Positions 15,222 to 23,618 of a DNA stretch of 24,954 nucleotides are shown here, one piece after another. This stretch comes from a virus: positions 1 through 24,954 of the IMG/VR virus record IMGVR_UViG_3300025873_000045. One strand, written 5' to 3'. The stretch's first letter is position 1, and each line of letters starts with the position of its first letter. The notes below the pieces were generated by a model, which was given only the letters and a program-made list of their open reading frames with translations, ran no database searches and was not told the DNA's origin. The position numbers and the translations under genes are program-made.

Positions 15222-16627
15222 TATAACTTAGGATAGTTTAGCCTATCAGCGTTAGGGAACTCTTGGCCAGTCGCCAAGCTTAGGTTCATAATTTGTTCCG
15301 CCCCGGGAAGTTGTTCTGTAGTATCACCATGATGGCTTCCGTGCGTCTGCCTGAACTCTTCCAAGGAAAGCGTGAAAGTTACAATCCTAGGGAGCAACGT
15401 TCGCATCTCATACCCTTTATCTTTCGGGTAAGAAATACTAAAGTTTTTAACAATGAAAGGGGCTTCATTGAATATAGTACCATGCCGAAATCTAACGATT
15501 GGAGGTCCTTGCTGTCCAAGCTTTGTTTCGTCCCCCACAACAGATGCCCTTATGGTATCAATCACATGCTGGGTGTACAGCGCGGCACCAAGAACGGGGT
15601 TCTCTAAATGCTCGCCCTCTACAGAGTAGTTTGTTAATAGAGTTTGAAGAAGGCCAAGACTTTTAGCCTCCCCAAATTTGTTTTTCTTTTCCATACCCCA
15701 CGGCATGTTTTTATACAGTTGGGGTCCTTGGTTCCCGTAGTTTTCAAACGAAACACCACTACCGTCAAACCCTAATTTCATTGTCCCGAAGAAGAGGTTG
15801 ACTTTATCCCTTGTAAACTCCCTTAGCTTATTTAATTGCGCTTTGTTGAAATTTCCGGGGTAATGGTTACCAAGCAACCTCCAGAAGTATTCGACGTGAG
15901 GAAGGGTATAATCAAAGGTTAAACGTAATTGTCTCGGGTCGCTCCCAACCCATAAGCGGACTGGCTCATTACGAGAGAGGACGGGATGGGCAGCATATCG
16001 TGCAGAACGGTCCTCGCTTATTTGGGGGTTTTGAAACATAGCCACTCTGCGCACACCCACGTCAGGGTTAGGAAAGTAAAAATCCAGATAAGACCTTTGC
16101 TCTAAAACTGTATTGATGCGGGCGGTATTCTCTTTAATAATACCGTTCCACTCTGCCATATCAAACGTAGCACCAGACCTAGCACGGTTAGAAACCTCGC
16201 GAACCATCTCAATTTCCGTGGTTGGGGTGCTATCGGTGCCTAATGACAGCTTAGGGATAGGTTGAAGGGGAGGAGGTCCATCATTTACCCCGTGGATTGG
16301 TTGGCCCGGTTTCTTGGGAGGAACACCGACTTCCATTACATTGGAACCGTCTGGTCCATATACAGTGGAAATTGCTTTCTCTACAGGAGAGCCTAAGTCC
16401 ATAGAAACATAACCCTGCTGTTGGATGCCTTCGTGATGTCGCCACTGCGGGTCTCCAACCGGGGTCCCGTAGTCCATGTTTGCCTTTGGGTTTGCTTGGA
16501 ACATCTCCTTAGTGCCCTTTTTAATAGGGGAAAAGTTCGGTCCCGGAGCGCCCCATGTCCCTAGCTTGTTAATGGTAGCATCAAAAATCTCATTAATACC
16601 GTTTGTAATTCCTGTTAATAGTCCCAT
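15221..16627 (-). CDS. Baseplate tail-tube cap / initiator candidate (gp48/gp54 position)
   Basis: A 468-residue protein directly after the tape measure, where T4 has genes 48 and 54. Residues 1-150 are Pro/Gly-rich and probably extended. From about 170 onward a beta-rich domain appears: LDFYFPNPDVGVRRVAMFQN, QISEDRSARYAAHPVLSRNE, then RLTFDYTLPHVEYFW. Later come PPIVRFRHGT, FIVKNFSISYPKDKGYEMRT and TFTLSLEEFRQ (about 380-430). These strand patterns are common in baseplate proteins that start or cap the tail tube and pair with the neighbouring LysM protein. The ATG at 16627 shares one base with the tape-measure stop codon (TAATG). Family membership is inferred from order and strand pattern; no catalytic motif is present. 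Confidence 0.65.
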   Translation of the reverse strand: MGLLTGITNGINEIFDATINKLGTWGAPGPNFSPIKKGTKEMFQANPKANMDYGTPVGDPQWRHHEGIQQQGYVSMDLGSPVEKAISTVYGPDGSNVMEVGVPPKKPGQPIHGVNDGPPPLQPIPKLSLGTDSTPTTEIEMVREVSNRARSGATFDMAEWNGIIKENTARINTVLEQRSYLDFYFPNPDVGVRRVAMFQNPQISEDRSARYAAHPVLSRNEPVRLWVGSDPRQLRLTFDYTLPHVEYFWRLLGNHYPGNFNKAQLNKLREFTRDKVNLFFGTMKLGFDGSGVSFENYGNQGPQLYKNMPWGMEKKNKFGEAKSLGLLQTLLTNYSVEGEHLENPVLGAALYTQHVIDTIRASVVGDETKLGQQGPPIVRFRHGTIFNEAPFIVKNFSISYPKDKGYEMRTLLPRIVTFTLSLEEFRQTHGSHHGDTTEQLPGAEQIMNLSLATGQEFPNADRLNYPKL

Positions 16628-19086
16628 TATGTGTTACCCCCTCTTTGAGCTTCTTGCTTCCGTATACGGTTTTGGGCCTCATTGTATGAGCGTAGGTAGT
16701 AGACATTCTCCCATGCATCGTCGTCTTCGCGGTTCGTGCCCAATGTATTATAAGTCGGATTCGAGAGCGGCAAGCGAGCCTCCGCTGACCCATACATCTC
16801 CCCCTGTTGAGGCACACCGTTTAGCAGCAGCATGTTGTCAGCTATAACCCTAAGATACTTATTGGATTCTTTATCCTCATCAAGGGCTGCTGCGGCTAAC
16901 GCATCAGCTTCCGCAGCAGCTTTTAGCTCTGCGGGAGTACCTTGAAACGCCGATTCCTGCGCCATTCTTTCCTGTTCAGCGGCTTTTTGTTTGGCTTGCT
17001 TAGCTACGAAATCAGGGTCATTAGCGTCATTGAGAGCCTTTCCAGCCTCTCCTCCACCCCAAGCACCAAGAATACCCCCAATGAGACCACCGATGGCTGT
17101 TCCAATAATCGGAACAACAGAACCAATGGCAGCACCTGTGGCAGCACCAACCATAGCTCCTCCCATACTACCTCCAGCCGTCAGAGCGGCTCTAGACTTA
17201 TCCCCAGTTTCCGCCAACTCCAAGCCTCCTGCAATAAGACCCCCAATGAGGGGCATTCTACTCGCACCCTTTCCAAACGCAGCTTTGGCTGTGCCCATCG
17301 CCCGTGGCATTTTACCAACAGACTTGAAAGACTGGGGAACATTGTGAGGAAGCCCAGTATGTGGATTCAGTGCATTCGATAGACCCATCCCTTGACCCGC
17401 TCTGGCAACATTTCCACCCTTCCCCCAAACATCACCTTTAAGCCAATTCGCGCCTCCTCTGACCCGCTGACCCGCACGGAATGCTCTGCTACTTCCACCG
17501 CTTCCACCGCTTCCACCGCCTCCAGCGCCTCCTCCTGTTCCTCCTCCGCCGCCACCGCCTCGTCCACCGAAGAGGCGACGAGCGCCACTTGCGACACCCT
17601 GACCTAGAGATAGAAGACCCCCTAACATCGCACCAAACGAGCCAATATCTAAAGCTGTTTTGGTCATGTTAAACCCAGCTTTGGCCCCAGTGATTCCGCC
17701 TAATGTTTTGGCAAGTGCTGTAAGCCCACCGTCTACTTCATAAAGACTGTCTCTTACGGTTTGTGAAACTGTGTTTAAGACTGTGAACGCGGTAGAAGCC
17801 CCTGCCAAAGACATGGCAAAGTTTTTCATGTTCCTAGATGCTTCCGCATCAACAGCAGTGATTAGCGTTTGTTTTGCCTCGTCCTGATTCTTCTGCTCTT
17901 CGGCAGTAAGTTTTGTGGGGGTCAATAATTTTTCTACACTTATATTCCGGTCACGCGATTCCTCAACACCCCTTATGGCAGACTGAATGTTTGATAAATC
18001 AAGGTTGCCACCAAGAGAAGCGAGAGCTTCTAGGTTTACAGCCCTACCGAGTGGGTCACTCCCCGCTTGAGCAGCGTAGGATGCAATCCCCTCCATAAGC
18101 TGCGACAAAAACGCTTTCGGGTCAGACTGTTGAAGACCAACATCAACTCCAAGCCTAGCGGCCATCCTACGTGCGCCAAGCTGCGACTCAGAATCTCCAG
18201 CCATTACCTTAGCCGCAAATTCCTGTAAGCCTGTCTTCGGGAGGGCAGCTTCCATCGCCGCCACAACTCCCTGCATCTCTATCGCCATCGACTTACTGAA
18301 GATTACGGATTGTACTCTGGATACTTCTTCAAAAGCAGCCACAGCCGCAAAGATTCCGTCAGCAACACGATTATTAGCCGTGGCCGTGTTAAGTATCGAG
18401 TCTCCTAGTTTATTAGCCTTACCTGTGGAAACACCAAGAACATTGGTGTTAGTAGCAAGAAACGCATTAGTTAACCCGAGGTCGTTACCTAAGCCAGTAG
18501 AACGTGCAAGGAAGGTTTGAGTGCCCGTGTCAGTCGCATCAACATTAGCTTTTAGGGCGGCATCTAATATTTTCCCGGACTGTTCAAAGCTAGTTCCCCA
18601 CTGGCCGAAAGCGGTCTCAACTTCTGGCATAGAGAAATCAATGCTTTGTAGTTTACCCGCTTCATCCTTAATCATCTTCGCGCCAAGCAGACTGTTCCTA
18701 CCAGTCATTGCAGCGGTACGACCCATTATAGTACCGTAAGATTGAATGTCTTTGGCAGCTTTCTCAAACGGCCCTAATAAAGTACCGAGAGTTGCACCAA
18801 ACTTGGTTATCTTTTTACCAAAAGCACCAACAGCGGCCATAAAGCCGCCTTTTTTCTTACCGCCTCCTCCTCCTCCGCCACCCTCGTCATCGCCACCACC
18901 GCCCTTGCTACTGTCCCCTCCAGCACCCTTAACAGCCTTGGCAACTTGGTCACCAATCAGCTTCGCATTCGCTGCACCAAAATCTACCTTAACGGATTTA
19001 AATGCATCTTTGATAGCATCATTCATTTGAGAAGCTAAATCCTTGTTTAGCTCTTCAAAAAAATTATGGTCTTCTGATGTGGTCAT
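16627..19086 (-). CDS. Tail tape measure protein
   Basis: An 819-residue Ala/Gly-rich, largely helical protein. After an N-terminal helix (residues 1-55) comes a Gly/Asp linker (about 60-75), then long helical stretches with Ala, Lys, Gln and Met. A second Gly/Ser linker (about 505-535) is encoded by short tandem repeats. Near residues 640-680 a strongly hydrophobic Gly/Ala/Ile/Val segment (such as GAAIGSVVPIIGTAIGGLIG) is the kind of membrane-inserting region expected in tape measures. By the usual rule of about 1.5 angstrom per residue the tail would be near 120 nm (rough inference). It is followed by the tube-cap, LysM, hub and spike genes, the standard tape-measure context. No peptidase or transglycosylase motif is obvious. 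Start at 19086 is 2 bp past the previous stop. Confidence 0.85.
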   Translation of the reverse strand: MTTSEDHNFFEELNKDLASQMNDAIKDAFKSVKVDFGAANAKLIGDQVAKAVKGAGGDSSKGGGGDDEGGGGGGGGKKKGGFMAAVGAFGKKITKFGATLGTLLGPFEKAAKDIQSYGTIMGRTAAMTGRNSLLGAKMIKDEAGKLQSIDFSMPEVETAFGQWGTSFEQSGKILDAALKANVDATDTGTQTFLARSTGLGNDLGLTNAFLATNTNVLGVSTGKANKLGDSILNTATANNRVADGIFAAVAAFEEVSRVQSVIFSKSMAIEMQGVVAAMEAALPKTGLQEFAAKVMAGDSESQLGARRMAARLGVDVGLQQSDPKAFLSQLMEGIASYAAQAGSDPLGRAVNLEALASLGGNLDLSNIQSAIRGVEESRDRNISVEKLLTPTKLTAEEQKNQDEAKQTLITAVDAEASRNMKNFAMSLAGASTAFTVLNTVSQTVRDSLYEVDGGLTALAKTLGGITGAKAGFNMTKTALDIGSFGAMLGGLLSLGQGVASGARRLFGGRGGGGGGGTGGGAGGGGSGGSGGSSRAFRAGQRVRGGANWLKGDVWGKGGNVARAGQGMGLSNALNPHTGLPHNVPQSFKSVGKMPRAMGTAKAAFGKGASRMPLIGGLIAGGLELAETGDKSRAALTAGGSMGGAMVGAATGAAIGSVVPIIGTAIGGLIGGILGAWGGGEAGKALNDANDPDFVAKQAKQKAAEQERMAQESAFQGTPAELKAAAEADALAAAALDEDKESNKYLRVIADNMLLLNGVPQQGEMYGSAEARLPLSNPTYNTLGTNREDDDAWENVYYLRSYNEAQNRIRKQEAQRGGNT
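17492..17518 (-). repeat. Three tandem 9-bp units in the tape-measure linker
   Basis: On the plus strand the unit cttccaccg occurs three times in a row, followed by related cctccagcg and cctcctcct units. In the tape-measure frame these give a Gly/Ser linker (G-G-S pattern). The tract may vary in copy number through slippage. It is coding and in frame. Confidence 0.8.
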
Positions 19087-19088
19087 GA

Positions 19089-19586
19089 TTAATCGTCGTC
19101 ATCATTGCTCAAAGCATCCTCTAGATAGACGGCATAAGTATTTAGGTCCACTTGAGCCAACCGTCTTAACTTGCTGCCCCGGGCATCATACTTTCTAAAA
19201 ATTGAGTTTTCCTTAGCGGTAGGTAAATCAATCGCACCTTTGATTTCATCGTATCCCAGCAGTTCCCCTTCATGTTCAGAAAATATGATTACAAGTTGCT
19301 GGATAACCTCTAAACGCCTATTGGACTCTAAGTAGTTCAGATTGAACCCATAGACATATGGATTCTTATTTTTAGCCCTCCATGTTTTCTGGCCCTGTCT
19401 TACCGCTAGAAGCAATAAAGGTTGTTTGTCTATATTTGGCCTTCTTTTTTTATCTTTCGGACCCCAGCTAGTATACCCAAAAGTGTACAACTGGCCAGCA
19501 TACTTGGACATGTTCTTGATAGAAGACATCCTCCTTCCGGGGGTATTTCTCCTGAACGTTAAACTTGCTTGAACTTTTCTTGTCAT
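19089..19586 (-). CDS. 165-aa hypothetical protein upstream of the tape measure
   Basis: A basic, then acidic-tailed protein (ends SNDDDD). The N-terminal third is Arg/Lys-rich. The centre has the pattern QLYTFGYTSWGPKDKKRR, IDKQPLLLLAV and then YVYGFNLNYLESNRRLEVI. Several phage proteins have a comparable D-K-x-P-L ... G-x-N-L-x-Y-L ... R layout, but I cannot name the family. The gene is the first of the long minus-strand tail run after the replication cassette, 2 bp ahead of the tape measure. T4 carries gene 28 (distal hub) just before 29, but similarity to gp28 is not something I can see. A GGGGTG motif 8 bp before the ATG can serve as ribosome binding site. Likely a tail or hub assembly factor (inference from position). 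Confidence 0.7.
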   Translation of the reverse strand: MTRKVQASLTFRRNTPGRRMSSIKNMSKYAGQLYTFGYTSWGPKDKKRRPNIDKQPLLLLAVRQGQKTWRAKNKNPYVYGFNLNYLESNRRLEVIQQLVIIFSEHEGELLGYDEIKGAIDLPTAKENSIFRKYDARGSKLRRLAQVDLNTYAVYLEDALSNDDDD

Positions 19587-19630: not shown

Positions 19631-19930
19631 ATGAACTCAGTTAACCTAGATGACCAAATAGAACTTGAAGAGTTCCTAGAACAAGTAAACTATGCTCTAT
19701 CCTTAGAGTTTAAAGAAAAATGGAGACACAGATACTCTGAATCCTTCATTAATATATTCCAAGGACTTATCATTGATGCCTTCCAGAATCAAAAGCCTGT
19801 TAAGCTCTCTGTCCTAGAGAATCAATATACTAAGAAGTATGGCTACGATGTCGTACAGGTTAAGGATTTCCTTAAGGCTATCGACATTAGCCTTTATTAC
19901 CCGATTGTTTATCGAGACTCTTTTTCTTAA
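19631..19930 (+). CDS. 99-aa hypothetical protein of the replication cassette
   Basis: A small, mostly helical protein beginning MNSVNLDDQIELEEFLEQVN, with alternating acidic and hydrophobic residues, a helix around ESFINIFQGLIIDAF, and a Tyr-rich end. There is no DNA-binding helix-turn-helix, zinc motif or signal peptide I can identify. It is read on the opposite strand to the surrounding tail genes and its last 44 bp overlap the 3' end of the nuclease gene. No Shine-Dalgarno is visible; an AT box lies directly upstream. Strand and context suggest an early or replication-related function rather than a virion part (inference). Codon structure is clean from the ATG to the TAA, which favours a real gene. 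Confidence 0.65.
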   Translation: MNSVNLDDQIELEEFLEQVNYALSLEFKEKWRHRYSESFINIFQGLIIDAFQNQKPVKLSVLENQYTKKYGYDVVQVKDFLKAIDISLYYPIVYRDSFS

Positions 19931-20675
19931 TCGCTTCCTGTAAAAGCTTTTCTGAGCCGCCAAACTTGGGGCAGAGACCCTTATACCCACACCAGTCGCA
20001 GAACTGGTTAACCCGAGGCTTGAAGTCAAGGGTCTTCTTTTTTCGGATTTTCCACTTTTTTTCGTCTACCTTCTTAAGAAAGTTCTTTATGTGGCTAGGG
20101 AGATACTTGATAGTGACTAGGTTATTTGTGAGCGGGTAGTAATGCGCTACCGTAACGCTCCGAATATCGCACTTATACATTTTGGCGATTGCGGCTGCGT
20201 AAATCATTAGCTGCGGGTCAGTGTAAAGGTCTCTTTTAGTTTTCTCCCGCTTAGAAGTCTTGTAGTCAATTACAAGAAAATGCCCCGGCTCACCCTCTAC
20301 AACACGGTCAATAATGCCATTAACCTCAAGGTCAGGCAGGACTTCTATCTTGAACCTCATCTCTGTGGAGATGCTCTTGGTGATTTTGCTGTTGAAGGCG
20401 AAGAAGTTTTTGATACATTTCAGGGTATCTTCTTCACGACCCTTGAAGTGGTAGCTATTACGTAGTCGGAGGCCATGCTCCTTTAGCTCCTCCACTGATT
20501 CCGAGTCAACACCGTCCTCTAGGATTTTGTGAATATATGAACCGAACTGAAGCGCATCTTTCGAAAGCCCCTCGTTGTAGTCCTCTCCGAGGTAGTGTAC
20601 ATACTTGTACCGGAACTTTTGCTCACATTCGTCAAAAGTGTTCAATTTCGAGGGGGAAAAGCCTTTAATATACAT
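19887..20675 (-). CDS. PD-(D/E)XK nuclease with Fe-S cysteines, RecB/Cas4-like
   Basis: A 262-residue protein if started at the ATG at 20675, chosen because an AGAAGG ribosome site lies at 20683-20688. The longer GTG frame adds 26 residues that overlap the primase start. The nuclease core is complete: His49 (GSYIH), Glu105, Asp123 (GIID), Asp137-Tyr-Lys139 (DYK), then Gln155 and Tyr159 in QLMIYA. Four cysteines frame the core: Cys17 (DECEQ) and Cys226-x2-Cys229-x5-Cys235 near the end. This is the AddB/Cas4-type iron-sulfur layout. Such enzymes are single-strand exonucleases or end-processing nucleases in recombination. The gene lies between two plus-strand genes, back to back with the primase. 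No CRISPR array or cas1 is present, so a phage recombination or replication role is likelier than adaptation. Confidence 0.88.
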   Translation of the reverse strand: MYIKGFSPSKLNTFDECEQKFRYKYVHYLGEDYNEGLSKDALQFGSYIHKILEDGVDSESVEELKEHGLRLRNSYHFKGREEDTLKCIKNFFAFNSKITKSISTEMRFKIEVLPDLEVNGIIDRVVEGEPGHFLVIDYKTSKREKTKRDLYTDPQLMIYAAAIAKMYKCDIRSVTVAHYYPLTNNLVTIKYLPSHIKNFLKKVDEKKWKIRKKKTLDFKPRVNQFCDWCGYKGLCPKFGGSEKLLQEAIKKKSLDKQSGNKG

Positions 20676-20679
20676 AATG
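20673..20679. promoter_or_regulatory. Back-to-back start codons of nuclease and primase
   Basis: On the plus strand the sequence is CAT A ATG: the minus-strand nuclease ATG and the plus-strand primase ATG are separated by one base. The ribosome site of the nuclease (plus 20683-20688) therefore lies inside primase codons, and any primase promoter lies inside nuclease codons. TTTAAT at 20664-20669 is 7 bp before the primase ATG and could be a -10 box. Expression control is inference. Confidence 0.55.
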
Positions 20680-21660
20680 GTACCTTCTAGTGTTATTAAA
20701 GAGTATTTGTTAGCAAAGTTCCCTGAAAACCGTGTATTTGGTGAGGAATTCACTACAAACTCTATATTCTCGCCTGACGATAAACTTCACCTCTCCATCA
20801 ACATGGTGACAGGTCTTTGGCAAGATTTCAAGTCTCAAGAGAGGGGTAATTTCCCTCAGCTTGTAGCGGCTGTTGAAGAGATTCCATATAGTCAGGCGGT
20901 AACTTATCTACGTGGCAAGATGTTCGATAGCCCAGAACATCTTTTTGATGTGTCTACTTTGAGGGTCACAAACCAGAAGTCCGCTCGCACAAACACAGTT
21001 GATAAGATTTTCTCAACCTTTAAAAAGTTTGACCCCCTCAACATTGATAGTGCCAGTTTAACAGAAAGGCTTGCGAGGAAATTTATTGTAACAAGAAAAC
21101 TTGAGAAGTTTGATTTTTATCTCGCTCCTACGGGAAGGTATACTAACAGGATGATTATTCCCTACAGCTACGATAACGAGAAAGCGTTTTACTTTCAGGC
21201 ACGTAATCTTAGTGTTATGGGTATTAAATATTTAAACCCTTCTCGGGAAATGACAGGCATGAAGTCTTCTGAAATTCTATTCCCCTTCAAAGACGATTGT
21301 GATTATATCTTTATTACCGAGGGTCCCTTAGACGCTATCTCCCTCCAGATTAACGGTATCAATGCTACCTGCACACAAGGTAGCCACCTGTCTGTTGCTC
21401 AAGCCGATATGCTAAAACGGAAGCAGATAATCTTTGCGTATGACAACGACGAAGCAGGGGCAGAGGGTGTCCGTCAAGCACGTAAGACTCTTTTAAGTAA
21501 GAACAAGAACGACTTCTGTGTCGCCAAACTGCCCGAAGGCTTCAAGGATTGGAACGACCTACACGTTGCGTGTAGTGGGAAGTCTCAGTTCGTGGCAGTC
21601 TTGAGGGACGGCATGACCGCAGTAGACTTCGGTTATGATGTTACTGAAGCACTAAACTAA
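20677..21660 (+). CDS. DnaG-like TOPRIM primase with degenerate zinc-finger region
   Basis: A 327-residue protein. The TOPRIM catalytic site is clear: Glu215 in FITEGPLDA and Asp256-Asn-Asp258 in FAYDNDEAGAEG. A basic and aromatic region sits before it (RYTNRMIIPYSYDNEKAFYF), as in the DnaG core. The N-terminal segment (about residues 33-75, DDKLHLSINMVTGLWQDFKS then RGNFPQLVAAVE) has the layout of a CHC2 zinc-binding domain, but the cysteines are absent. It would make RNA primers for lagging-strand synthesis. I chose the ATG at 20677, one base after the nuclease start codon. A TTG at 20605 would extend the protein over the antisense nuclease start and looks less likely. No good Shine-Dalgarno precedes the ATG. 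The 3' end overlaps the 306-aa gene by 20 bp, tail to tail. Confidence 0.88.
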   Translation: MVPSSVIKEYLLAKFPENRVFGEEFTTNSIFSPDDKLHLSINMVTGLWQDFKSQERGNFPQLVAAVEEIPYSQAVTYLRGKMFDSPEHLFDVSTLRVTNQKSARTNTVDKIFSTFKKFDPLNIDSASLTERLARKFIVTRKLEKFDFYLAPTGRYTNRMIIPYSYDNEKAFYFQARNLSVMGIKYLNPSREMTGMKSSEILFPFKDDCDYIFITEGPLDAISLQINGINATCTQGSHLSVAQADMLKRKQIIFAYDNDEAGAEGVRQARKTLLSKNKNDFCVAKLPEGFKDWNDLHVACSGKSQFVAVLRDGMTAVDFGYDVTEALN

Positions 21661-22561
21661 ACTCTTCGCTCACGAAGGTTTGCTCAAGAAGGGTATACTT
21701 GACCTGAACGATGTAATCACCCTTCGACTCCCCGGAGGTGTCCCAAGTAAACAAGATTGTGTCCTCTGAGCTAACATCAATCCCACTAGAGGTCCATCCC
21801 GAAACAGGCTCAATGTTAGTAATGAGCCCCGTAGTCTCCGGGTTCCTTTTTCGAATTCTAATCTCAGCGTTATCAATTACCCCATCTCGCCAAATAGTTT
21901 TTAGGTCCTGAGACATATTTTTATTGGCAACAAACTGTTCTGTCGTAATCCTAAGAGTGGGGACGGAGCTTAGCTGGATATACTTATTTTGTAACTTGCT
22001 GTGGGATGTTATCTGATACGGTTCCGTGAATGTGATTATTCGGTCGTTGAACGTTTCGAATTTATTCCAATAAAGCTTCCACCCCGCTGACGCATCCACC
22101 GCTGAGAAGTCTTTAACGAGCCACATATCAAACCACTTACCGTCTGAAAGCCCTAAGGAAGAGTAAGAGGGGTATGCTACCCCATCTGCTACAACTGCAT
22201 AATGGCCTGTACCTGCGCTGTAAATAGCACTCGCACCCGAGGTTCCCGCACCCGAGTAAGAACTAGGGGGTTGGATGGCAGCGCCGTTACTTACGTCATA
22301 TTTAGCGACAACCGCCGACAACCCTACTGCATTTAGCTTTCCGTAGGCGGAGGTACCAAGAGCGCTTGCATCCTTATTGATATAAATATCTGGGCTACCG
22401 GCTGTCTTGTTGCTAATGTCCGGGAGGATGTACACCGAACTAATCTCTGAAGGATTGAAGTAAGTACCGTTGTTAGTAAAGAATTGTTCTAATAAAGTCC
22501 TTAGAAGAATGCTAGGACGGTTGTACCGCTTAACTACTGAATATCCGTTAAAAGTTGCCAT
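21641..22561 (-). CDS. 306-aa virion structural protein candidate, Ig-like C-terminus
   Basis: The N-terminus (MATFNGYSVVKRYNRPSILL, then LLEQFFTNNGTYFNPSEISS) and the Ala/Ser/Gly-rich middle are typical of phage structural proteins. The last ~90 residues form a run of beta strands: IRIRKRNPE, GIDVSSEDTILFTWDTS, GDYIVQVKYTLLEQTF and EEFSLVLQ. This resembles an Ig- or FN3-like sandwich, though no named family can be assigned. The ATG lies 5 bp after the stop codon of the -1 frame ORF downstream of the gp26-like gene, with a poor Shine-Dalgarno of its own, so coupling to the frameshifted product is likely. Position between the gp26/51 locus and the tape measure region suggests a tail or baseplate component (inference). 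The 3' end overlaps the primase gene by 20 bp on the opposite strand. Confidence 0.7.
   Translation of the reverse strand: MATFNGYSVVKRYNRPSILLRTLLEQFFTNNGTYFNPSEISSVYILPDISNKTAGSPDIYINKDASALGTSAYGKLNAVGLSAVVAKYDVSNGAAIQPPSSYSGAGTSGASAIYSAGTGHYAVVADGVAYPSYSSLGLSDGKWFDMWLVKDFSAVDASAGWKLYWNKFETFNDRIITFTEPYQITSHSKLQNKYIQLSSVPTLRITTEQFVANKNMSQDLKTIWRDGVIDNAEIRIRKRNPETTGLITNIEPVSGWTSSGIDVSSEDTILFTWDTSGESKGDYIVQVKYTLLEQTFVSEEFSLVLQ
21659..21681. terminator. Hairpin at the convergent primase / 306-aa gene end
   Basis: Directly after the primase stop, AAAC-t-CTTCG pairs with CGAAG-GTTT around a CTCA loop: nine base pairs with one bulged base. It lies at a tail-to-tail gene junction where a bidirectional terminator would be expected. 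No clean U-tract follows on either strand, so this is at best a weak terminator or an mRNA-end stabiliser. Confidence 0.3.
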
Positions 22562-22566
22562 CTTAT

Positions 22567-22797
22567 TTATCTAGTCCGTTTCTTGCGAGCTTGCTCCATT
22601 TGTTCTGCTTCTCGTTCGCGTTCTTCCCCTAGCAACTTTATATACGTCTCTCTCTCTATGAAACACAGTTTTCCCACGTCAGTCAGACTAAGATTTACAT
22701 GCTTAACTAGGATATAGGCTTGGGTTTCAAGCCCATCGTCCGCCCAGAAACTAGTTAGCTCGCGGTAAAAAAACTTTCGTTCAGTCCAATCTCCACT
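22567..22797 (-). CDS. gp51-like -1 frame extension of the gp26-like gene
   Basis: This 76-codon open frame follows a TAG (22798-22800) and ends at TAA 22567-22569. It begins SGDWTERKFFYRELTSFW and ends with a Glu/Arg/Lys-rich helix (REREAEQMEQARKKRTR). It has no ATG, GTG or TTG before codon 41, so free initiation would lose more than half of it. It overlaps the gp26-like gene at the T7 heptamer, where a -1 shift joins residue 284 of that protein to 66 new residues starting YRELTSFW, a 350-residue fusion. The position directly after gp26 matches T4 gene 51, a hub-assembly factor. The WTER...FY...W helical opening is like small gp51-type proteins (recognition tentative). It is 5 bp from the next start codon. 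Transcript slippage on the T7 run could give the same product. Confidence 0.72.
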   Translation of the reverse strand, partial: SGDWTERKFFYRELTSFWADDGLETQAYILVKHVNLSLTDVGKLCFIERETYIKLLGEEREREAEQMEQARKKRTR

Positions 22798-23618
22798 CTA
22801 TTTTTTGTATTGCATTCAGTACAAGTATAGAAGAAGTGATTTTCCATCCCATAATCAGGGGTGAAGATGTGAGAACGTAAGGTGTCGATGTCCCGAACTG
22901 TTGTCTTGTGGAGGAAAGCTTCAAGGATAGTCTTATCGGTAATGCCTCCCACACTGTAAACGAACATGTGTAGGTTGTTCATTAACAACTCCGGGGTACG
23001 GTAAAGATGCTCGTCTTGGCTCCTAGGGAGTTTAATAATCGCATCTTGCTCAGAGTCGGGAAGCCTGAACTTCATATGCTCCGGGGTGAGCTTCCGCATA
23101 TCCAACGTTGAAATCGTTAAGCTTAGCTTACTGGCCTTAGAACAATTATTACAGTCGTGTTGAATAGGGTATTCATCGCCGTAGGAAATGCCCCGTAAAC
23201 GGAAAAGGCAATAAACTCTATCGTGTGGAGTAAGCTCCTCGACTGCAATCCCCTTAACACAGTTACGCAGCAACTTTTCAATTACTGCGTCCGGGTCCTT
23301 GGCGGCTTCCATAGATTTCAGGATACGCTCGTCATCAAAAGTAAAGGGGCGGATACTTACTTTTGCTTCACCGTTTGGGTAAAGAAGTCCTTGAGAAGGT
23401 AACGAAATTTCCTGCCAAGCCATCCGATGCTTGACATGGACTAGGAGCTTCTCTAAAGCCTCCTCAGACATCTTATCAGCAGGCATGCTCTCAGACATCT
23501 GTGCTGCTTTGCGTTGCACCTCGGGCTGCACAGAGGGTTCAGCGGAAGGCAGGTTGCCAGCGTCTGCTGCTTTGTGCTTTTGTACTAGGTCAACAATTGA
23601 TTCGGTATTTTCACTCAT
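22755..23618 (-). CDS. T4 gp26-like baseplate hub / tail assembly protein
   Basis: A 287-residue protein. The first ~65 residues are polar and probably disordered. The core starts near residue 85 (RMAWQEISLPSQGLLYPNGE) and continues KVSIRPFTFDDERILKSM, a block common to gp26-type T4 baseplate proteins: the SLPS-x-G-x-x-Y start followed by a phi-R-P-F/M-T segment. Four cysteines, Cys156-x2-Cys159 and Cys266-x2-Cys269, make a likely zinc ribbon. T4 gp26 is shorter (208 aa) and acts with gp51 in assembly of the central hub. The ATG at 23618 has a GGAG 6 bp upstream (plus 23625-23628). The gene is divergent from the UvsW-like helicase, and T4 also keeps gene 26 near uvsW. Its 3' end carries the proposed frameshift site, so the short form and a longer fusion would be made from one gene. 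Confidence 0.85.
   Translation of the reverse strand: MSENTESIVDLVQKHKAADAGNLPSAEPSVQPEVQRKAAQMSESMPADKMSEEALEKLLVHVKHRMAWQEISLPSQGLLYPNGEAKVSIRPFTFDDERILKSMEAAKDPDAVIEKLLRNCVKGIAVEELTPHDRVYCLFRLRGISYGDEYPIQHDCNNCSKASKLSLTISTLDMRKLTPEHMKFRLPDSEQDAIIKLPRSQDEHLYRTPELLMNNLHMFVYSVGGITDKTILEAFLHKTTVRDIDTLRSHIFTPDYGMENHFFYTCTECNTKNRVEIGLNESFFTAS
22767..22773 (-). other. Proposed programmed -1 frameshift heptamer T_TTT_TTT
   Basis: Seven T residues on the minus strand stand in the gp26-like frame as AGT TTT TTT ACC, which is X_XXY_YYZ phase. A slip of one base back reads TAC next and enters the 66-codon extension. The zero-frame stop follows after three more codons. Possible stimulators are weak: a GTGGAG about 17 bp upstream and a CCGC/GCGG pairing downstream. 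Confidence 0.7.

Follow-up and report, generated by a model that had tools for sequence, protein, structure and literature searches.

Organization of the gp26/gp51 locus

The viral DNA analysed here at its full length of 24,954 nucleotides (hereafter the window) carries a gp26-like gene followed, in an overlapping −1 reading frame, by a gp51-like extension, with all features of the locus on the minus strand (Table 1). The 3′ end of the gp26-like open reading frame (ORF) reads GAA AGT TTT TTT ACC GCG AGC TAA and includes a heptamer of the X_XXY_YYZ form, T_TTT_TTT, which is in phase and lies inside the overlap with the open −1 frame. A preliminary description of this DNA had placed the heptamer correctly in these respects; the 12 bases that it gave as the distance to the zero-frame stop are reached only by counting the stop codon itself, and the spacing is 9 nt. 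Its account of the −1 ORF agrees with the sequence: the frame is open for 76 codons directly after a TAG and has no ATG, GTG or TTG in codons 1–40. The earliest common start is a GTG at codon 41, followed by TTG and ATG codons. The extension ends, as also described, 5 bp ahead of the next gene (ATG at 22561). The gp26 ORF and the −1 extension together provide the coding capacity for a short and a long protein form with a common N-terminus.

Table 1. Features of the gp26/gp51 locus, in window coordinates
Feature	Position	Strand	Evidence
gp26-like ORF of 287 aa, proposed short form (TAC-N) of the tail assembly chaperone	22755..23618	−	PF12322, phrog_150, hhalign to T4 gp26
Slippery heptamer T_TTT_TTT, in phase	22767..22773	−	Sequence; T_TTT_TTY conserved in relatives
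−1 ORF, 76 codons, gp51-like extension (TAC-C), predicted to be used from FF at 22773	22567..22797	−	Sequence; phrog_634
Zero-frame stop TAA of gp26	22755..22757	−	Sequence
Predicted downstream stem-loop, possible stimulator	22697..22763	−	Folding prediction; putative role

The gene immediately after the extension (21641–22561) encodes a 306-aa protein that is conserved in L001, the first relative found, and has no match in Pfam or PHROG. The probable tape measure gene (16627–19086) is on the same strand as the locus, which lies about 3.5 kb upstream of it, and the two are separated by primase and nuclease genes, namely a minus-strand PD-(D/E)XK exonuclease and a plus-strand Toprim primase arranged back to back at 19887–21660. 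Positions 19089–19586, which immediately precede the probable tape measure gene, encode a protein of 165 aa that weakly matches phrog_429 (DNA end protector). In phage LIS04, the gene directly downstream of the corresponding locus is annotated as tape measure, and in SP-15 the gene in this position matches tape measure profiles. A position immediately ahead of the tape measure gene is typical of tail chaperone genes, but not strictly defining.

Relationship to T4 gp26 and gp51

The identities given to the two proteins in the preliminary description are borne out by profile searches. The gp26-like product matches PF12322 (T4_baseplate, the gp26/gp51 family) with 69.6 bits against a cut-off of 24.5 (E=3.9e-19), as well as phrog_150, and residues 27–74 of the extension match phrog_634, ‘baseplate hub assembly catalyst’ (E=2.6e-5). 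In hhalign comparisons, the gp26 alignment matches both T4 gp26 (E=1e-15) and T4 gp51 (E=1.5e-6), while the alignment of the extension matches the C-terminus of T4 gp51 (E=6e-5).

The T4 proteins are themselves related: both are members of PF12322 (gp26, E=8.8e-64; gp51, E=3.9e-52), gp51 additionally matches phrog_634, and BLASTP aligns the two with E=2e-6. By sequence comparison, T4 gp26 and gp51 are paralogues, gp51 being a gp26-like domain plus an extension. T4 has two members of this family, against one in each of 18 further records searched, and T4 gp51 resembles a fused long form established as a gene of its own. The window proteins resemble the T4 pair in family membership and domain plan, and differ from it in that T4 has two separate, divergent genes in place of one locus with a slip site. 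In T4 (L020:5803-7229), gp26 ends in KEFFELL with the Phe codons TTC TTT, so that the FF pair is kept and the slip heptamer is gone. A review of the T4 tail counts gp26 and gp51 among the hub assembly chaperones and describes gp51 as essential, of unknown function and not found in the final particle (PMC3004832).

An AlphaFold model of the window gp26 (pLDDT 89.5) gave its two best VIA-align matches with the HK97 tail assembly chaperone 2OB9 (Z 5.4) and YqbN 3KLU (Z 5.2), followed by the next entry at Z 2.2. The 2OB9 alignment covers 88 of 104 residues, and values of Z under 8 are moderate. A Foldseek search of the model against the PDB returned no match with E under 0.001, and searching PDB sequences with the alignments of gp26 and of gp51 yielded no informative hit and no chaperone chain. 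The modelled likeness of gp26 to an HK97-type chaperone is suggestive, not decisive; together with the T4 paralogy, the matches to 2OB9 and YqbN are in line with the role proposed at the outset, in which gp26 and gp51 would be functional counterparts of the lambda G/GT chaperones.

Conservation of the slip site and the −1 frame

Relatives were collected in five gp26-query scans of viral contigs, to which phage records were added, yielding 271 loci in which a gp26 ORF was recognised. In the 262 loci where gp51 was also found, its frame relative to gp26 is −1 in 259 and +1 in 3, and in none is it the same frame; gp51 was not found in 9. An in-phase T_TTT_TTY is present in 256 of the 259 −1-frame loci, or 187/190 after redundancy removal, and two of the three non-redundant exceptions carry T_TTT_TTA. 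Counted by position, the motif falls in phase within the last 36 nt of gp26 in 189/198 non-redundant relatives, as compared to 1 of 620 other ORF ends of the same loci, and the zero-frame stop follows 0–24 nt past the heptamer in nearly all loci.

The codons at the terminal FF pair are strongly biased: in 191/194 cases, T is the last base of the preceding codon and TTT encodes the first Phe, versus 49/460 for other FF pairs. The residue before the terminal FF is variable (S, D, N, A, Y or H) and the T-ending codon is kept, including in phage loci of 51–56% GC. This bias despite a varying residue points to selection on the nucleotides and not on the protein alone.

L001, whose protein is 60% identical, has the same heptamer and −1 ORF and no start near the junction. 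The preliminary description had proposed an alignment of homologues as a check, and close relatives retain both the startless ORF and the slippery run. The same plan is found in isolates, including cyanophages, Methylophilales phage Melnitz-3, pf16, DLP_6, PhiW-14, Vibrio R10Z and Aeromonas AS-yj, with departures in Ackermannviridae, SP-15-like phages and T4-type two-gene phages. The earlier restriction of the pattern to a single lineage was too narrow, as it is present in nearly every T4-type group sampled, T4-like two-gene phages excepted. These observations support the programmed −1 frameshift first proposed from the window sequence, and we consider it very probable that the T4-type tail assembly chaperone of the window is produced in this way.

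The extension is unannotated in AS-yj (L018:1606-1772) and LIS04 (L004:4709-4938), and several cyanophage records begin it at differing ATGs. Such missed or variably started extensions are a systematic annotation gap; an extension without a start codon is easily overlooked in annotation.

Alternative explanations

The extension could instead be a separate, ordinary gene whose translation begins within the frame, at a rare or internal start codon, or through reinitiation once the gp26 stop has been passed. An ATG near or just past the gp26 stop in 65/79 cyanophage-type loci, the TAATG overlaps of some phages and the GTG at codon 41 of the window −1 ORF would all fit such a gene. However, only 2 of the 51 non-redundant window-type loci have a common start codon (ATG/GTG/TTG) near the junction, initiation at the codon-41 GTG would remove most of the conserved domain, and a separate gene has no need of the in-phase heptamer that is kept almost throughout. 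We regard this explanation as improbable.

Just as improbable is slippage of RNA polymerase on the T7 run, by which some mRNAs would gain an extra U and the ribosome would not need to shift. Homopolymer runs can give transcriptional slippage and the window has seven Ts, but the run is T6C rather than T7 in 151/190 non-redundant relatives, and a strict T_TTT_TTY codon phase is needed by ribosomal and not by polymerase slippage. An assembly or sequencing error, in which a true run of eight Ts would make the frames continuous, has a negligible probability: errors in homopolymer length do occur, but the same −1 relation recurs across 259 loci drawn from isolate genomes as well as independent assemblies, the zero-frame stop is close behind the heptamer in nearly all, and many relatives have T6C rather than T7, which excludes this error, the eight-T objection raised in the preliminary description, as a general explanation.

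Putative stimulatory elements

Programmed −1 frameshifting, our preferred reading, may be stimulated differently in different groups. The stop follows 9 nt after the heptamer in 49 of the 51 window-type loci, and the upstream GGAG/GAGG Shine-Dalgarno-like element described below is absent from them. In many of these loci, the zero-frame stop is held, a few nt past the heptamer, in the 5′ arm of a predicted hairpin. In the window, TAACTAG (22757–22751) pairs with CTAGTTA (22710–22704), and corresponding arm pairs in other window-type loci include GCTAGGCTT/AAGCCTAGC and CTAGAAGAAG/CTTCTTCTAG. Within one subgroup, six pairs are kept in 12/12 distinct sequences, with a double change at two pairs; in another, 94% of nine pairs are kept. 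A longer stem is common to the window and three relatives and includes a compensatory pair in its base. Support from folding energy is modest (z=−2.0 for the window and z=−1.0 for L001), with only 31% of window-type loci beating shuffled sequences at the 5% level, and a search of Rfam gave no match. The stop-codon hairpin is a plausible, not an established, frameshift stimulator in the window lineage.

Cyanophage-type loci (e.g. L011:1590-1620) have a Shine-Dalgarno-like GGAG/GAGG starting 12–15 nt upstream of the slip site. A duplex energy of −5 or below is predicted for 86% of these sites versus 15% of control positions, and the Glu codon at the element is GAG in 58/79 loci versus about 32% elsewhere in the gene. 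The element resembles the dnaX-type stimulator.

Possible other routes to the long form

In SP-15, LIS04 and their relatives (L004, L006, L282, L283, L284, L275 and L276), the same FF pair leads into a gp51-like extension that lies in the +1 frame. The site reads TT(T/C)_TTT, then mostly C (TTT_CGT, TTT_CAC or TTT_CAT), which suggests, from its sequence, a +1 shift in these phages. In form, it is similar to the UUU_C site of influenza PA-X. A literature search found no description of a +1 shift in SP-15.

In Ackermannviridae (L019:1960, L277:2305 and L278:2005), gp51 lies in the −1 frame and the slippery heptamer is missing. Their gp26 stop is overlapped by ATG, ATT or ATC (TAATG, TAATT or TGATC), and either reinitiation at an unusual start codon or slippage of a single codon is possible.

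Taken together, we think it fairly likely that a single family has retained one FF junction and reaches the long form by differing routes. Most groups would use a −1 slip, accompanied by a Shine-Dalgarno-like element in some of them and by a stop-codon hairpin in the window lineage; SP-15/LIS04-like phages would use a +1 slip at UUU_N, and T4 has two separate genes.

Proposed model and relation to known systems

In the proposed model, the locus would encode the pair of tail assembly chaperones of a contractile-tailed phage of the T4 type. The short form, TAC-N, would be gp26 as completed by most ribosomes. A fraction of ribosomes would move back by one base at T_TTT_TTT, so avoiding the stop located 9 nt further on, and append the 66-residue gp51-like domain after FF (FF-YREL...) to give the long form, TAC-NC. 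Stimulation of the slip may come from the downstream hairpin in which the stop codon is held. If they act like lambda G/GT, the two forms would jointly bind the tape measure protein and aid the start of tube assembly.

Tail chaperones made by −1 frameshifting, lambda G/GT among them, were reportedly described by Xu, Hendrix and Duda in 2004. As in lambda, the window has a short protein with a −1 extension among tail genes; unlike in lambda, its locus does not adjoin the tape measure gene, and the lambda slip sequence differs from T_TTT_TTT. The preliminary description knew of no frameshift in a T4-type gp26/gp51 pair, but one has already been reported: a frameshift in the tail assembly chaperone of T4-like phages is the subject of Vladimirov, Gautam & Davidson 2022 (Virology 566:9-15, pmid 34826709), as cited in PMC10885494 and PMC12846349. 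The frameshift concept is thus known and the window is a further member. The stop-codon hairpin of the window lineage, the Shine-Dalgarno-like element of other lineages and the apparent +1 shift of SP-15-like phages, all recognised from sequence, are possibly new.

Passages of Sullivan et al. 2010 (PMC3037559) describe cyanophage and vibriophage gp51 proteins that are without the first ~200 residues and report gp51 to be missing from Aeh1; those on the shortened gp51 give no explanation. The slip would offer an answer to the puzzle of a shortened or missing gp51, as it would supply the N-terminus from gp26. Our findings extend a known frameshift to a widespread, little-known and largely uncultured aquatic lineage, and a family with −1, apparent +1 and two-gene solutions is suited to the study of how recoding is gained and lost.
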